64,000 bases of DNA from positions 1-64,000 of the forward strand of contig NZ_ML119086.1 in NCBI RefSeq assembly GCF_003789055.1, written 5' to 3'. A program made the translations under genes and the position numbers. The stretch is from Histidinibacterium lentulum. Its GTDB lineage: Bacteria; Pseudomonadota; Alphaproteobacteria; Rhodobacterales; Rhodobacteraceae. Within the stretch, counting starts at the first letter, position 1; every line of letters begins with the position of its first letter. This document shows, piece after piece, positions 3,447 to 48,320 of this stretch. The notes beneath the pieces were generated by a model that had not been told where the DNA came from, did not search any database, and saw nothing but the letters and a program-made list of their open reading frames with translations.

Positions 3447-3866
3447 TCAGAGGCGCTTGGCAAAAAACAGCCTGGCCTCGTTCTCCGGGTAATCGTCGAT
3501 CCGACCGAATTCGCTGTAGCCCTGGCGCCTGTAGAACTCCGGCGCCTGGAACGAGAACGTGTCGAGCCATATCCCGTCCATCCCCCGCACGCGTGCTTCT
3601 TCCTCGAGGCGCGCCATCAGCTGGCGACCGATCCCCTTGCCGCGCCCCTCCTCGGCCACCGCCAAAAGCTCGACGAACACCCATTTCAGATCCAGCGAGA
3701 ACCGGGCGGCGAGGCCACCGAGGTAAAGATCGCCTTCACGCGCCTCGAGGAACACCATCTCGGACCTGAATGATTTCCCGGCCACCTTGGAATGGTGATC
3801 GAGAAGCGCCAAGATGCGTGCTCGTGCTTCAACCTCGGAACCATGTGCTGGATGGATCTGGGTCAT
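3447..3866 (-). CDS. GNAT-family N-acetyltransferase
   Basis: A 139-residue protein with the GNAT acetyl-CoA binding motif RGKGIGRQLM (about 75-84) preceded by a beta-4 strand WVFVELLAV, and the typical C-terminal FYRRQGY segment. The ATG at 3866 has GAGAGGA six bases upstream. Acetyl-CoA-dependent acetylation of an amine is the family activity; the acceptor is not predictable. It ends convergent with the upstream hydrolase gene and is followed to the right by a gene on the same strand, 112 bases away. Confidence 0.85.
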   Translation of the reverse strand: MTQIHPAHGSEVEARARILALLDHHSKVAGKSFRSEMVFLEAREGDLYLGGLAARFSLDLKWVFVELLAVAEEGRGKGIGRQLMARLEEEARVRGMDGIWLDTFSFQAPEFYRRQGYSEFGRIDDYPENEARLFFAKRL

Positions 3867-3978
3867 TGTGCTGTCCTCTCATCGGTCATTGTCCAAGATC
3901 GGGATCTTGCCGCGCCGGGAGCCGGGGCTCTGCGTGATCTCACGACCCTCCTCCTGACGTATCGGTTCGAAAGCCGCA

Positions 3979-5004
3979 TCACCGGGCTGACCTGTCCGGC
4001 ATGCCGCGCACATTGGCGCGAAGGAAACGGGCAACCTCCTCGGCGATTTCCCCGTCCTCTTCCGTCCCGCCGAACCCGCCATGTGGCATGGCCTCGAAGA
4101 CATGCAATTCCGTGACCACCGCCGCCTTGCGCAGTTTCCGGTGCAGCCGAACGGCGCTCGACAGGAACAGGTCCCGGGTGCCGCTCTGGATGAAGGTCGG
4201 CGGAAAGGCCGTCGTGAAGGTCCCGAACAGAGGCGACAGGTACGGATGCGCAAGATCCGCGCCATTCGCATAAAGCCGGTTCGCGGACATCAGCGGGTTC
4301 GGCAGGTTCACATCCAGCGTCCTGTTTGCAGAAAAACTGTCGCCCGATTCCGTGAGGTCGACTTCGGGCGAGAGCAGGATCAGGCAGGCGGGCAGCGCCA
4401 GGCCTTCGTCATGCGCGCGCAACACGGTTGCGAGGGCCAGGTTGCCACCAGCAGACCGGCCGCCGATGATGACGTGGTCGGCACCGTATTTCTGAACGGC
4501 GTACCGATAGACACTCAGGCAATCGTCGAGCGCTGCCGGAAAGGGGTGATCGGGGGGCATACGATAGTCGATGCCGTAGCACCGCACCCCGTGCAGGTCG
4601 GCGACACCGCGCGCGCTGTCGCGGCATGCGTCCCCACCCCCGAAGACGAACGCCCCACCATGCAGATCGATATAGACGATTTCGCTGTTTCGCAGGTCGG
4701 CGGGGCTTGCCACATGAACCGTCGCAGTCCCGATCTGCTCTGTCGTCGTCTGTGCGGTGACTTCGGACCGGGTTGCCTTCAGCCTGGATGCATAATGCGC
4801 GTCGGTCGCGGCCCTGAGGCGGCGCCAGGCATGGTGGTCTTCCGGACCGGGCATCGCGTAGGAGGCGCTGTGCGGGACGCTATCTCCACCCACGGCTCCA
4901 TGCAGCTTCAACTGCGCAGAATGGCTGATGGATGTCGGCACCGGAACAACTCGCTCGTCGAGCCTGACCCCATTCAGCTGCATCGTCTCTTTCGCTTTTT
5001 CCAT
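3979..5004 (-). CDS. Alpha/beta-hydrolase of the HSL (hormone-sensitive lipase-like) family
   Basis: A 341-residue esterase/lipase. It shows the HSL oxyanion-hole motif HGGAF (115-119), the nucleophile elbow GRSAGG with S184, the acid D278 in GTRDLF and H308 in MPHGGF. The ATG at 5004 is chosen because AGGGGTGAG sits 7-8 bases upstream; a longer reading to 5103 would add a low-complexity extension. There is no signal peptide, so it is probably cytoplasmic. It lies 117 bases downstream of the prolyl oligopeptidase on the same strand. Carboxylester hydrolysis is expected; the substrate is unknown. Confidence 0.85.
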   Translation of the reverse strand: MEKAKETMQLNGVRLDERVVPVPTSISHSAQLKLHGAVGGDSVPHSASYAMPGPEDHHAWRRLRAATDAHYASRLKATRSEVTAQTTTEQIGTATVHVASPADLRNSEIVYIDLHGGAFVFGGGDACRDSARGVADLHGVRCYGIDYRMPPDHPFPAALDDCLSVYRYAVQKYGADHVIIGGRSAGGNLALATVLRAHDEGLALPACLILLSPEVDLTESGDSFSANRTLDVNLPNPLMSANRLYANGADLAHPYLSPLFGTFTTAFPPTFIQSGTRDLFLSSAVRLHRKLRKAAVVTELHVFEAMPHGGFGGTEEDGEIAEEVARFLRANVRGMPDRSAR

Positions 5005-5121
5005 ATCCGGCTCACCCCTGTCTTCGTAATCATACTGATCGTCTTTCCGGGCAGTTCGATTGATCGACCGATCGAAAGGGTGCCCGGCCCGCGCCAGTGA
5101 CACCCTTCCGCTCTGACGGTC

Positions 5122-7260
<2,139 letters not shown>

Positions 7261-42509: not shown

Positions 42510-43418
42510 CTACGGTTCTACCACCCCCAAGAACTCCCGCCATTCCCCCTTGCTCATCCCGCTTGTTTCCTGAGTGACCTTTTCGCCCTTCAGCATCCGC
42601 CGCACGCACTCCACTCCCTTCGCCGACAATACCGCCCCCCCGAGCCGGTAATCCTCGAAGGCGCCGTAGGCGGCGGGGACCCAGTCCCTGACCATGGCAC
42701 AGATGGCCTCGGCGTAGACGCGGATCTCGTATTGGGCGTGGGCATCCGCCCTCAGGCGCAGGAAATGGAAGAGGTTGTGCAGGTCCACCTTCCAGTACCA
42801 TTGCGTGTAGATGTTCGCGGGCAGGTTCATCCGGGCGAGTTCCCGGGCGAGGCCTTGCTGTCCTTCCTGGGAGATCATCGCCTCGTAGTGGTCATAGGCC
42901 CGGGCGGCGTCGGATTTCAGCCAGTCGAGAACCCGGGCGGCTTCCTCCCCCGACAGGGCCTCGCCGCGGCCCTGGTTGTTGACCACGGATTGCGCGGCGA
43001 GCATCTCCTGTTCGGGGATGTAGAATTCGCGGTCGAGGATCGAATAGCGGGCGGAATACTCGTTCACATTGGCGGTGCGGTGGCGAATCCATTGCCGGGC
43101 GACGAAGACCGGCAGCTTCACATGGAGTTTCAGCTCGCACATCTCGAAGGGCGTGGAGTGCCAGTGCCGCATCAGGTAGCGGATCAGGCCCTCGTCGTTC
43201 GACACGGCCTTGGTGCCCCGTCCATAGGAGACGCGGGCGGCCTGGCAGATGGCGGCATCGTCGCCCATGTAGTCGATCACCCGAACGAAGCCGTGGTCGA
43301 GCACGGGCCGCGCGAGGAAGAGATGGGCCTCCATGCCGGGCGACACGGCGCGCAGGGTCGGGCGCGGTTCGGCGCGGAGGGCGGCGATCTCGGCCTCCTG
43401 CTCGGGGGTGAGCGACAT
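42510..43418 (-). CDS. thyX: Flavin-dependent thymidylate synthase
   Basis: A 302-residue FAD enzyme making dTMP from dUMP with methylene-THF and NAD(P)H. The ThyX signature is [17 protein letters not shown] (about 110-126); [20 protein letters not shown] carries other FAD/dUMP contacts. AGGAGA lies 6 bases before the ATG. Length is slightly long because of an N-terminal extension of about 25 residues. It is divergent from the lipoprotein gene. Confidence 0.96.
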
Positions 43419-43628: not shown

Positions 43629-44729
43629 ATGTTCCGACTGATGATCGCCGTTTCGGCGCTCGCTCTCGTGTCCGCTTGCGGCGATGGCGACGGACAGCCC
43701 TTCGACTTCGGCGACGAGACCGAAGAGCCCGCGGCGGACGATCCGACCGGCACCGGCGGCACCGGCACAGGAGGCGACGACACCGCGGACCAGCCCGACG
43801 GCGTCGCGGGGGCCGAGCTTCCGCCCGGCACGACCGAGCCCCAGGCCGACGGCTCGATCCGGCGGTTCGAGCCCCGCAACGAGCAGGGCGGCGGGCGGAT
43901 CATCTCCCCGGTGGTCTACGACCGCGAGAACGACACGTTCACCGTCGACAACCTCGCCTTCGACGGGTTCAACACCTACCAGCGGGGGCGGGCGATCGGC
44001 TCCATGGGCGGCTATGCGGTCTACGAGGCGGACGTGCAGGTCACCGACTTCCTAGACGGCGACCAGGTGGGACAGATCGTGCCCTACCGCGCGATCCTCG
44101 GGGTGAGCCAGAACACTGTCCGCAACGACGCGGGCGAGACGGTCCCGCGCAGCTCCTTCGCCATCGTTCGCACGGGCGGCTACGTCAACTTCGGCTTCGG
44201 TGGTTTCGTCTACGAGCGTGAGGGCGGCGTGGTGCTGCCGACCGAGGGCCAGGCGAACTTCTCTGGTGACTATGCGGGGATCCGTGTCTTCGACGCGCGC
44301 GGCGGGCTGGAGTTCGTGCGCGGCGACATGACGGTCGACATCGACTTCAACGATTTCAACGCCAACGCGGGCGTGAAGGGCCGGATCGCGAACCGGGAGT
44401 TCTTCAACGCGGACGGCACGCCGATCGCCACGGGCAATCAGGAGGGCCAGCTGCCGAACCCCGACGTGGTCTTCGTGATCACCGACGGCGAGGGCAGCAG
44501 CGTGGATCGCAACGGCGAGATCACCGGCCAGGTGCTCAGCACCTATGTGCCCGACGGCGCCAACGCCCCGGAGGAATACGAGACCGGTACCTATTTCGCC
44601 GTCATCTCGGGCGATCTGACGGACCGCGCCGATGGCGGCGAGATTACCGGCGTGATGGTGATCACCTCGACCGATCCGCGCGACGACGTCCCGGCTCAGG
44701 AAACGGGCGGCTTCATCCTCTACCGCTAG
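43629..44729 (+). CDS. Lipoprotein, candidate Slam-dependent surface lipoprotein
   Basis: A 366-residue lipoprotein. The signal peptide ends in the lipobox V14-S15-A16-C17, with G at +2, so outer-membrane sorting is expected. A long Gly/Asp/Thr-rich flexible linker (about 18-75) follows, as used to hold a domain off the surface. The C-terminal half is rich in short alternating beta strands (GGYVNFGFGGF, GDMTVDIDFNDFNANAGVKGRI, GEITGVMVI, FILYR end), like the eight-strand barrel of TbpB-type Slam substrates. The next gene, 11 bases downstream, is a Slam-like barrel protein. Ligand unknown. Confidence 0.7.
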   Translation: MFRLMIAVSALALVSACGDGDGQPFDFGDETEEPAADDPTGTGGTGTGGDDTADQPDGVAGAELPPGTTEPQADGSIRRFEPRNEQGGGRIISPVVYDRENDTFTVDNLAFDGFNTYQRGRAIGSMGGYAVYEADVQVTDFLDGDQVGQIVPYRAILGVSQNTVRNDAGETVPRSSFAIVRTGGYVNFGFGGFVYEREGGVVLPTEGQANFSGDYAGIRVFDARGGLEFVRGDMTVDIDFNDFNANAGVKGRIANREFFNADGTPIATGNQEGQLPNPDVVFVITDGEGSSVDRNGEITGQVLSTYVPDGANAPEEYETGTYFAVISGDLTDRADGGEITGVMVITSTDPRDDVPAQETGGFILYR

Positions 44730-44740
44730 GGAGCGACGAC

Positions 44741-46129
44741 TTGGCAAGGGCAGATCAGCGGGGGCGCCGCCGCGGGTCCGGATCCCGCGTGACCGTTGCG
44801 GCCCTGGTCGCCGCCGCGCTGGGCTTCGGTGCAGGCGGCGCGGCGCGGGCGCAGGACGGCGTGTCGCCCGAGGCGCTGATGACCGCGGCCGCGGGGGCCC
44901 TGGCTGCGGGCGACGCTGGGGCGGCGGCGGTGATGGCCGACGCGCTGCTCGAACGGGATGCCGCGGATGTGCCGGCGCTGATCCTGAGGGCCGAGAGCGC
45001 CATCGCGATGGGCGATTACGAGAGCGGCCTCAACGCCGCGCGGCGCGCCTGGGCGGCGGCGGAGGTGGAGCCCGCGCGCTATGCCTCGGCCCGGCTCGCG
45101 GCGCTCGCGCTGAGCCAGCAGGAGGCCCATACCCGCTCGCAGTTCTGGCTTCGCCGGGCGCGGCAGCATGCGCCGAACCCGGCGGAGGCGCAGTCCGTGG
45201 CCGAGGACTATGCCTATGTACGGCGGCTGAACCCCCTGTCCTTTCAGCTCGAGTTCAACGTGGCCCCCTCGGACAACATCAACAACGGGACCACGAACGA
45301 GACCCTGACCATCGAGGGCCTGCCCTTCACCTTCCTGTTGACGGGCGACAGCCAGCCCCTGTCGGGCACCGAGTTCACCCTGGGCGGCAACCTGCGCTAC
45401 AAGCTGCGCGAGGGCGCGCGCAGCCTGACCTATGCCGAGGTCACCGGCTTTGGCCGGACCTACCGTCTGTCGTCGGAGGCGAAGGACCTGGTGCCGGACG
45501 CTCAGGGGTCGGATTACGCGGAGGCGCAGCTGACCTTCGGTCTCGGGCATTTCTGGCTGCCTGCGGGTGGCCGCGATCCCTGGCAGTTCGACCTGTCGCG
45601 CGGGCGCTTCTGGTACGGCGGCGAGCCCTATCTCGACTTCCTGCGCGCCGGTGTGACCAGACCCGTTACCCTGTCGGAGTCGGACCGGCTGCGCTTCGGA
45701 GCGACCTGGGAGACGCTGGAGGAGACGGACGGCGACACGAGCGAAGCGCTGGCCCTCCGAGCGAGCTGGGAGCATGTCTTCGACGGCGGCGGCGTGCTGT
45801 CCCTGGGCCTCAGGGGGCGCGTGGTGGAGGCCGAGGGCCTCGACAAGGCCTACGAGGCGCGTGCCGTCACACTCGGCTGGCAATTCTCGGGCTCCGGAAT
45901 TTCGGTGGCCTACGATCTCGAGGAGCGCAATTACGACGAAAGCCTCTTCGTGATCGACACCCGCACCGACACGCGCCATGCCCTGCGCCTTGCCGTGCCG
46001 GTCCCGCAGGTGGAGGTCTACGGTTTCAGGCCGGTGATCAATGCCGAGCGGACCCGCACAGAGAGCAACGTGAGCCGTTTCGATACCGAAAGCACGGGCG
46101 TCGGCCTGACCTTCCGGTCCGCCTTCTGA
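44741..46129 (+). CDS. Slam-like outer-membrane protein (TPR plus DUF560 barrel)
   Basis: A 462-residue protein. The signal peptide is about 17-38 (ending ARAQ), an Ala-rich alpha-helical repeat region of TPR type is 41-160, then a beta-barrel (about 165-462) with alternating strands and a terminal aromatic, TFRSAF. The join LNPLSFQLEFNVAPSDNINN and the ending NVSRFDTESTGVGL resemble Slam/DUF560 proteins, which move lipoproteins to the cell surface. The TTG start has AGGGAG 7 bases upstream. It forms an operon with the lipoprotein gene. TbpB-type Slam systems are best known in Neisseria and Moraxella. Confidence 0.72.
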   Translation: MARADQRGRRRGSGSRVTVAALVAAALGFGAGGAARAQDGVSPEALMTAAAGALAAGDAGAAAVMADALLERDAADVPALILRAESAIAMGDYESGLNAARRAWAAAEVEPARYASARLAALALSQQEAHTRSQFWLRRARQHAPNPAEAQSVAEDYAYVRRLNPLSFQLEFNVAPSDNINNGTTNETLTIEGLPFTFLLTGDSQPLSGTEFTLGGNLRYKLREGARSLTYAEVTGFGRTYRLSSEAKDLVPDAQGSDYAEAQLTFGLGHFWLPAGGRDPWQFDLSRGRFWYGGEPYLDFLRAGVTRPVTLSESDRLRFGATWETLEETDGDTSEALALRASWEHVFDGGGVLSLGLRGRVVEAEGLDKAYEARAVTLGWQFSGSGISVAYDLEERNYDESLFVIDTRTDTRHALRLAVPVPQVEVYGFRPVINAERTRTESNVSRFDTESTGVGLTFRSAF

Positions 46130-46408: not shown

Positions 46409-46837
46409 ATGAGCCTGCGCTATCTGCACACCATGGTCCGAGTGAAGGACCTCGACGCCTCGATCGCCTTCTACAAGCTGCTCGGGCTGGAGGAGACCCG
46501 GCGGACCGACAACGATGGAGGCCGGTTCACCCTCGTGTTCCTCGCGCCCCCGGGCCAGCACGAGACGCCCGTCGAGCTGACCTACAACTGGGACGGGGAC
46601 GAGGGGCTGCCTTCGGACAGCCGGCATTTCGGCCACCTGGCCTATGAGGTGGACAACATTTACGAGATGTGCGCGCACCTGCAGGAGAACGGCGTGACGA
46701 TCAACCGCCCGCCCCGGGACGGACGTATGGCCTTCGTGCGCTCACCCGACAACGTCTCCATCGAGCTTCTGCAGAGGGGCGAGGCACTGCCGCCGGCGGA
46801 GCCCTGGTCCAGCATGGAGAATACCGGGCACTGGTAG
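46409..46837 (+). CDS. gloA: Lactoylglutathione lyase (glyoxalase I)
   Basis: A 142-residue VOC-fold metalloenzyme converting the methylglyoxal-glutathione hemithioacetal to S-lactoylglutathione. It begins YLHTMVRVKDLDASIAFYKLLGLEETRR with the first ligand H7, then VELTYNWD with the Glu ligand, GHLAYEVDNIY with the second His, and VSIELLQRGE with the final Glu. GGGAG lies upstream of the ATG. The 279-base gap before it holds no other gene. Confidence 0.93.
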   Translation: MSLRYLHTMVRVKDLDASIAFYKLLGLEETRRTDNDGGRFTLVFLAPPGQHETPVELTYNWDGDEGLPSDSRHFGHLAYEVDNIYEMCAHLQENGVTINRPPRDGRMAFVRSPDNVSIELLQRGEALPPAEPWSSMENTGHW

Positions 46838-46842
46838 CGCCG

Positions 46843-47604
46843 ATGGCCGGACCGGGGCGGCGGCGCCCTGCCCCGGCCCCGCGGCGCGGCGGCGGGGTTC
46901 GGGCGCTCGCCGCGGCTCTCGGGCTCGCCGCCGCCGGGCCCGCGCCGGCGCAGGAGATCGTCTGCCGGGTGGCGCTTGTCCTGGCGCTCGACGTCTCCTC
47001 CTCGGTCGATGCGGAGGAGGACCGGCTCCAGCGGCAGGGTCTCGCTGCGGCGCTGGCCGCGCCGGAGGTGGCGGCGGCCTTTCTCGCCAGCGACTTGCCG
47101 GTGGCGCTCGCGGCCTTCGAATGGTCGGGGCGCTGGAACCAGACGGTCATCCTCGACTGGAGGCTGATCGGATCCGAGGCCGATCTCGCCCGTGCAGCGG
47201 CCGAGGTCGCGGAATCGCGCCGGAGCACGAACCAGTATCCCACCGCCATGGGCCATGCCCTCGGCCATGCCTCGACGATGCTGCGGGAGGCGCCGCGCTG
47301 CCTGCGGCAGACGGTGGATGTCTCGGGGGACGGCATCAACAACGACGGCTTCGGGCCTCGCCTGACCTACGAGGCCTTTCCCTTCGAGGGGATCACGGTG
47401 AACGGCCTCGTGATCGAGGAGGGCGGCGCCGAGGCCGGAGATATCGCGCTGCGGGACTGGTACGCGCGCGAGGTCCTGCTGGGGCCCCTGGCCTTTCTCG
47501 AGGTGGCGGACGGTTTCGCCGATTTCGAGCGGGCGATGCGCCGCAAGCTCGAGCGGGAGGTTGGCGCCCAGGCGATCGGCGCGCTGGGGGACCGGAAGCG
47601 GTGA
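46843..47604 (+). CDS. DUF1194 vWA-like secreted protein (first copy)
   Basis: A 253-residue protein with an Arg-rich signal peptide (about 1-37, ending PAPAQ). A von Willebrand A-like fold has the metal-site motif DVSSS (D50-S52-S54), a later T/S in QYPTAMG, and D in VSGDGINN. DUF1194 is common in alphaproteobacteria and of unknown function. The ATG is 5 bases past the gloA stop, and its own stop overlaps the next gene (GTGA). The two DUF1194 genes are clearly paralogues. Confidence 0.82.
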   Translation: MAGPGRRRPAPAPRRGGGVRALAAALGLAAAGPAPAQEIVCRVALVLALDVSSSVDAEEDRLQRQGLAAALAAPEVAAAFLASDLPVALAAFEWSGRWNQTVILDWRLIGSEADLARAAAEVAESRRSTNQYPTAMGHALGHASTMLREAPRCLRQTVDVSGDGINNDGFGPRLTYEAFPFEGITVNGLVIEEGGAEAGDIALRDWYAREVLLGPLAFLEVADGFADFERAMRRKLEREVGAQAIGALGDRKR

Positions 47605-48320
47605 GGCGGCTCGGGGCGATCCTGGCGCTGCTTCTGCCGGTGGCGGTCCTGGCGGAGGGTGCGGGGCCGTGCCGGCAGGCGCTGGTTCTGGGACTCGACG
47701 TTTCGGGCTCGGTCGACGGCGCGGAATACCGGTTGCAGAGAGACGGCGTGGCGGCGGCGCTCACCGCGCCGGAGGTGGCGGAGGCGCTGTTCGCGGGTCC
47801 TGGGCATGTGCGGCTCGCGGTCTTCGAATGGAGCGGGCCCGCGGCGCAGAGGGTGTTGCTGCCCTGGACCGAGATCGGCGATGCCGAGGCGCTGGCCGGA
47901 GCGGTGGCCGTGCTGCACGGGGGCGTGAGGCAGCAGTCGGAGCCGACGACCGCCCTCGGGGCGGCGATCCTGACCGGTGCGCGGATGCTGCGCGAGCAGA
48001 ACGGCGTGTGCTGGCAGCTGACGCTCGATCTGTCGGGGGACGGCAAGTCCAACACCGGACCGAGGCCCGGAGAGATCGATCCCGGCGCCCTTCCGGGGAG
48101 AATGGTGGTCAACGGGCTTGTGATCGGCGCCGAGGCGGATGTTGCCGGTCCGCGGCGGCTTGTGGAGATCGGCGAGCTCGTCGCCTATTTCCGGGCGGAG
48201 GTCCTGCGCGGGCCCGGGGCCTTCGTGGAGGTGGCGCTGGGTTTCGAGGAGTTCGAGGCGGCGATGCGGCGCAAGCTCGTGCGGGAGCTGCGGCCCGTTG
48301 CGGTGGGCCGGGCCGAGTGA
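47601..48320 (+). CDS. DUF1194 vWA-like secreted protein (second copy)
   Basis: A 239-residue paralogue of the preceding protein with a shorter signal peptide (1-19, ending VLAEG). The MIDAS-like motif is DVSGS (D33-S35-S37), with LDLSGDGKSN further on and a C-terminal GFEEFEAAMRRKL matching GFADFERAMRRKL of copy one. The GTG start overlaps the previous stop by 4 bases, so the pair is co-translated and may form a heterodimer. Function unknown. Confidence 0.82.
   Translation: MRRLGAILALLLPVAVLAEGAGPCRQALVLGLDVSGSVDGAEYRLQRDGVAAALTAPEVAEALFAGPGHVRLAVFEWSGPAAQRVLLPWTEIGDAEALAGAVAVLHGGVRQQSEPTTALGAAILTGARMLREQNGVCWQLTLDLSGDGKSNTGPRPGEIDPGALPGRMVVNGLVIGAEADVAGPRRLVEIGELVAYFRAEVLRGPGAFVEVALGFEEFEAAMRRKLVRELRPVAVGRAE

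Follow-up and report, generated by a model that had tools for sequence, protein, structure and literature searches.

The two genes at positions 43629-46129 of the Histidinibacterium lentulum sequence, which we read as a two-gene type 11 secretion (T11SS, or Slam) cassette placed in the intergenic slot between thyX and gloA, encode a putative cargo lipoprotein and its putative secretor, a reading to which we assign a probability of about 0.85. The window considered here is the whole stretch of DNA analysed, 64,000 nucleotides long. An earlier note, made from the sequence alone, had proposed a Slam-type lipoprotein export pair at this position, and both its reading frames and the gap of 11 bases between them are exact. 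The cargo and secretor roles that it gave to the two proteins are supported by the Pfam profile PF04575, by the structure models of both proteins and by their co-divergence; export itself would follow by analogy with the Slams already studied.

Organization of the locus

The first frame encodes a lipoprotein of 366 amino acids with the N-terminal start MFRLMIAVSALALVSAC, in which a signal peptide is followed by a lipobox, VSA-C17 (VSAC, residues 14-17, assigned by a motif check), and then by a linker rich in Asp, Gly and Thr. The spacer of 11 bases (44730-44740) contains a GGGAG stretch similar to a Shine-Dalgarno sequence, and the outer-membrane protein (OMP) encoded downstream has an N-terminal hydrophobic signal segment that ends near ARAQD. 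The features are, by position:

42510-43418, - strand: thyX (PF02511, Pfam E 9e-56), divergent neighbour and flank of the slot
43629-44729, + strand: putative T11SS/Slam cargo, a surface lipoprotein (lipobox, OMP adjacency in homologues, AlphaFold, Foldseek)
43677-43703, + strand: predicted lipidated Cys17 and tether-proximal motif CGDGDGQPF ([NQEDST]P[FL] at most 10 residues from the Cys)
43851-44228, + strand: N-terminal beta domain of the lipoprotein, residues about 75-200, presumed effector or handle (AlphaFold strands)
44250-44723, + strand: C-terminal 8-strand barrel of the lipoprotein, residues 208-365 (AlphaFold; relatives match TbpB_B_D and FHBP_C)
44741-46129, + strand: putative T11SS/Slam outer-membrane secretor, 462 amino acids, TTG start (PF04575; AlphaFold)
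44867-45229, + strand: TPR domain of the secretor, 7 helices, residues 43-163 (AlphaFold; TPR Pfam matches in relatives)
45236-46120, + strand: 14-strand barrel of the secretor, residues 166-460 (AlphaFold; BcsC, PelB and OmpG among the nearest folds)
46409-46837, + strand: gloA, glyoxalase-family gene (PF00903, Pfam E 1e-18), other flank of the slot
46843-47604, + strand: first DUF1194 gene (PF06707, Pfam E 3e-68), neighbour judged outside the unit (no co-divergence with the lipoprotein)
47601-48320, + strand: second DUF1194 gene (PF06707, Pfam E 4e-61), neighbour judged outside the unit

The products of the two DUF1194 genes (46843-48320) have MIDAS-like starts, DVSSSVD and DVSGSVD, and two more DUF1194-type matches are found elsewhere in the same genome.

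This type of locus is already known. Marine cluster 3 of the T11SS comprises thyX, cargo, OMP, gloA and DUF1194 (Grossman et al. 2025, PMC12282271, Fig. 8) and was reported from Ruegeria pomeroyi and other Rhodobacteraceae/Roseobacteraceae, 11 strains. The window locus has the same genes, namely ThyX, an SPII lipoprotein with an 8-strand barrel (282-375 amino acids in the published loci), a T11SS OMP, GloA and DUF1194, with PF02511, PF00903 and twice PF06707 flanking the pair, and nothing essential differs in the locus itself. The Slam-type reading of the earlier note stands, but the novelty that it implied is reduced, because the same Roseobacter locus was described in 2025 (PMC12282271). What is new here is the presence of cargo at most loci, the co-divergence of the pair, the persistence of its neighbours alone, the tether motif and the absence of a detectable TonB receptor.

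The lipoprotein and its tether

The AlphaFold2 model of the lipoprotein (pLDDT 85) shows a low-confidence tether (residues about 16-60), an N-terminal beta domain (75-200, pLDDT mostly 80-96) and 8 strands (208-365); here, as for the OMP, the input alignments consisted only of window proteins and proteins from genome contigs. When this model was compared with the PDB by Foldseek, the top meaningful matches were hemophilin of A. baumannii (7re4, E 3.8e-4), TbpB (4o4u), HphA (8glo) and fHbp (5t5f), all of them Slam/T11SS cargo; the TM-scores against known cargo are low, 0.27-0.35 by query length, and about 0.3-0.45 in the comparison with hemophilin and HphA. No Pfam family was matched by the window lipoprotein, and TbpB_B_D was matched by 2 of 21 and 6 of 43 aligned lipoproteins (best 6e-7), the window protein not being among them, while a PDB sequence search with the lipoprotein family profile returned nothing meaningful. 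Predicted Slam-dependent lipoproteins have an 8-strand barrel domain in common (PMC5449769). In one subgroup of the family (alignment rows L046, L049, L054, L055, L056 and L059) the proteins end in two conserved Cys, as RCG...C or in a similar form, which perhaps make a disulfide that closes the C terminus; this feature is absent from the window protein.

Close to the site of lipidation, the motif [NQEDST]P[FL] is present at most 10 residues after the lipid Cys in 39 of the 47 family lipoproteins with a clear lipobox, the form found in the window protein being C-GDGDG-QPF. Of 31 other predicted lipoproteins encoded at these loci, 0 have the motif; this background is slightly mixed, because two of its members (L216 and L217) are diverged family members without the motif and a few more are probably not genuine lipoproteins. 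Since the motif is conserved within an otherwise variable and disordered tether, it points to a site of recognition, whether for the secretor or for lipoprotein sorting.

TonB receptors

The fold matches to hemophilin and TbpB are in line with a nutrient capture linked to TonB, in the style of TbpB, HpuA and hemophilin, where the lipoprotein or a released form of it would hand iron, heme or another metal ligand to a receptor encoded elsewhere in the genome, and a TonB receptor gene is indeed present in 120 of 185 lipoprotein-containing Slam clusters (PMC5449769). However, the absence of such a receptor beside the pair, remarked upon in the earlier note, is confirmed at the locus and extends to the genome (24 contigs, 100% complete by tool estimate), where neither PF07715 nor PF00593 found a match, although these profiles did find matches in the controls E. 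coli, Caulobacter and Bacteroides; as the search is based on family profiles, very divergent receptors could escape it. PF00593 had no match in the four genus mates either, nor in 10 of the 14 pair-bearing genomes tested. According to a 2012 survey (PMC3400609), Ruegeria pomeroyi DSS-3, a species that serves as the reference of the published T11SS locus (PMC12282271), possesses no TonB-dependent transporters, the other Roseobacters analysed having one to five.

As the genome has no detectable TonB-dependent receptor and R. pomeroyi is reported to be without them, a hand-off to TonB is disfavoured and we consider it quite unlikely here. For the same lack of a detectable receptor, the N-terminal domain, once displayed, would probably work alone instead of serving TonB as a co-receptor. 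Its likelier roles are adhesion, the capture of a ligand, for instance one taken up by a porin or an ABC route, and surface protection.

The outer-membrane protein

In hmmscan the OMP scored 26 bits against PF04575 (SlipAM, former DUF560), over the curated cut-off of 22 (E 8e-6), a modest match that is strongest over the last part of the barrel; at E<=1 the profile is matched by 18 of the 20 aligned OMP members, the window protein included. A six-frame search of the whole H. lentulum genome with PF04575 gave no match at E<=0.001, which we judged to be a sensitivity limit of that search, and the NCBIfam scan found nothing above its cut-offs. TPR_14 and TPR_19 are matched in 11 of the 20 aligned members, the TPR Pfam profiles remaining below cut-offs against the window OMP alone. 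The AlphaFold2 model (pLDDT 92) consists of 7 helices (43-163) and 14 long strands (166-460). The two models thus reproduce what had been read from the letters, a lipoprotein with a flexible linker and a barrel-like C-terminal domain and an OMP with TPRs and a 14-strand-type barrel, and, together with the PF04575 score, the outcome of these checks, both proposed in the note, fits a Slam-type cargo and secretor.

The nearest solved folds of the OMP model are BcsC and PelB, polysaccharide exporters with which it shares a periplasmic TPR part and an outer-membrane barrel, and the 14-strand OmpG was also listed; the comparison is indirect, because no Slam structure is among the PDB matches listed. 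A PDB sequence search with the OMP family profile returned TPR proteins only. From the two top matches, and from the relatives that keep the OMP without the lipoprotein, one could picture an autonomous channel of porin or polysaccharide type, a TPR-barrel similar to BcsC or PelB, with the lipoprotein as its periplasmic partner. However, the window OMP has 14 strands as in Slam and, unlike those exporters, exceeds the PF04575 cut-off and possesses a lipoprotein partner of cargo fold, to which it is adjacent one-to-one and with which it strongly co-diverges (see below), and no polysaccharide synthase genes were noticed at the locus, so that we regard this alternative as very unlikely.

Conservation and co-divergence of the pair

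Homologues of the putative secretor were found in 23 of 61 genomes (that of H. lentulum and its relatives), including all five of the genus, and homologues of the lipoprotein in 13 of the 61 by single-sequence search, every one adjoining an OMP match; when the ORFs upstream of the OMP were read, further lipoproteins appeared, too diverged for this kind of search. A search of genome contigs with a six-sequence alignment gave 66 named loci, mostly from Rhodobacteraceae/Roseobacteraceae, with Histidinibacterium, Oceanicola granulosus, Roseisalinus, Loktanella, Tateyamaria, Roseovarius and Thalassovita among them. Using the profiles built here, the lipoprotein gene is present at 61 of 66 non-redundant OMP loci of this site type, and the lipobox in nearly all lipoprotein homologues; as for the five OMP loci without a lipoprotein match, two begin at a contig end or close to it (L066, L117), one carries a broken pair (L125) and two are apparently without the gene (L072, L088). 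The pair is not due to chance, since both homologues keep the same place and order in relatives, and the ATGA overlap of the two genes in at least two loci suggests translational coupling. The published ratio of cargo to OMP is low, 0.21; search sensitivity, one of the possibilities that its authors list (PMC12282271), seems to account for much of this.

Fragmented frames were observed in L125:4251-6067 and L068:3597-4817, for the lipoprotein in both and for the OMP also in L125, possibly decaying pairs or sequencing errors. Two further T11SS pairs (L057:5434-7784 and L121:3681-6335) are located outside the thyX-gloA slot, and their lipoproteins match TbpB_B_D directly.

Both members of the pair diverge fast, with a mean difference near 0.79, as against 0.19 for thyX and 0.23 for gloA. 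Across 41 non-redundant loci the lipoprotein and OMP distances correlate at 0.69, and at 0.67 once thyX and gloA are accounted for, a partial correlation reached by 0 of 999 label permutations (highest 0.20); partial Mantel tests are liberal, and these values therefore indicate a strong co-divergence, yet no proof of contact. With DUF1194 added (29 loci) the partial correlation of the pair is 0.69, that of lipoprotein and DUF1194 is -0.19 and that of lipoprotein and thyX is -0.04, while the OMP has weaker ones with DUF1194 (0.33) and thyX (0.24). The pair co-diverges independently of thyX, gloA and DUF1194.

The thyX-gloA slot

Among 12 pair-free loci examined, in genomes with no OMP match at this site, thyX and gloA are direct divergent neighbours in nine (G007, G008, G012, G014, G021, G026, G027, G028 and G034), with gaps of about 79-270 bp; the others have a gap of about 606 bp (G018), an unrelated membrane protein (G015) and, by eye, a PhoX-like protein (G019). 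DUF1194 follows gloA in 6 of the 12. On a thyX and gloA tree with 53 rows, six changes account for the distribution of the pair, below all 500 shuffles. The pair is a cassette, and the slot that it occupies has flanks that are also seen where the pair is missing; since thyX, gloA and often DUF1194 are found together there too, the published co-occurrence of the cluster 3 T11SS with ThyX, glyoxalase and DUF1194 looks like inherited synteny.

That the whole published locus is the functional unit, the T11SS working with ThyX, GloA and DUF1194 in folate or metal metabolism or with DUF1194 as cargo, is in our view highly improbable, despite the high co-occurrence in cluster 3 (DUF1194 102, glyoxalase 89 and ThyX 77 of 145 loci, PMC12282271) and the partial correlations of the OMP given above, because the empty slots and the DUF1194 genes behind gloA at pair-free loci, as well as the lack of co-divergence of the lipoprotein with any of the three genes once the OMP is accounted for, disfavour them as partners.

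As the space between thyX and gloA is taken by other genes in some relatives, for a 297-aa membrane protein (L201:5293-6186) and a 696-aa PhoX-like protein (L202:6225-8315), the site looks like a variable insertion slot.

A second OMP paralogue and CAP-domain lipoproteins

A further OMP is present in 16 relatives (Yoonia, Loktanella, Roseobacter CCS2 and uncultured strains), where it forms one fully supported clade. At 16 of 16 of these loci (L075, L076, L077, L079, L080, L082, L085, L091, L096, L098, L099, L101, L104, L105, L107 and L113, around 3500-7000 in each) it is adjoined by a CAP-domain gene (PF00188), upstream and divergent in most and downstream and convergent in few, most with a clear lipobox. 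No CAP-domain gene was found at the thyX-gloA loci, and the 8-strand barrel domain is absent from the CAP protein. The CAP lipoproteins are candidate cargo without the usual barrel, but their link with this OMP is tentative, because the distances of the two do not correlate (r 0.09, with 271 of 999 permutations as high).

In these Yoonia/Loktanella-type genomes, the OMP on the thyX side has no adjacent lipoprotein in 11 of the 13 loci examined (L218-L221 and L223-L229), where it is a possible orphan secretor, and for this reason the OMP may have other substrates.

Discussion

If the pair is a T11SS cassette, the lipoprotein would be synthesized with a Sec/SPII signal, acquire its lipid at Cys17 and be carried to the outer membrane, where it would cross the 14-strand barrel of the adjacent OMP in an unfolded state, a step modelled on the Slams already studied, in which the passage of the unfolded lipoprotein is assisted by Skp and proceeds without ATP or proton motive force (PMC9090332). 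Outside, it is assumed to refold via its C-terminal 8-strand barrel, and it would stay tethered by its acyl chains and by a linker of about 45 residues.

The window pair is similar to Neisseria Slam1 and Slam2 with TbpB, fHbp and HpuA in having TPRs, a DUF560 barrel and a lipoprotein cargo with an 8-strand barrel, and it shares gene adjacency with Slam2 and HpuA. However, it is distant in sequence, the cargo staying under Pfam thresholds and the OMP match being modest, it lacks a TonB receptor, and its N-terminal domain is different. Hemophilin/HsmA and HphA, which have T11SS secretors in Acinetobacter and Haemophilus, are the best PDB matches of the lipoprotein model, at a low TM-score, but the window pair has neither heme uptake genes nor a TonB receptor alongside.

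More tentatively, and with doubt prevailing over the whole, the observations can be joined in a Roseobacter T11SS branch without any TonB receptor, in which a new tag, C-x(2-6)-[NQ]-P-F after the lipid Cys, would mark cargo for the secretor, and in which a duplicated secretor of Yoonia/Loktanella would have switched to CAP-domain lipoproteins devoid of the 8-strand barrel.

To our knowledge, the T11SS cargo verified experimentally come from animal-associated bacteria. Several verified cargo work with TonB receptors. For the published locus, the association with one-carbon, glyoxalase and DUF1194 genes is corrected here, since it looks like inherited synteny of the slot, and the tether-proximal motif provides a small and directly testable handle on T11SS cargo recognition. 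A marine branch retained without a detectable TonB receptor would show that the export of surface lipoproteins by the T11SS is not tied to TonB uptake.
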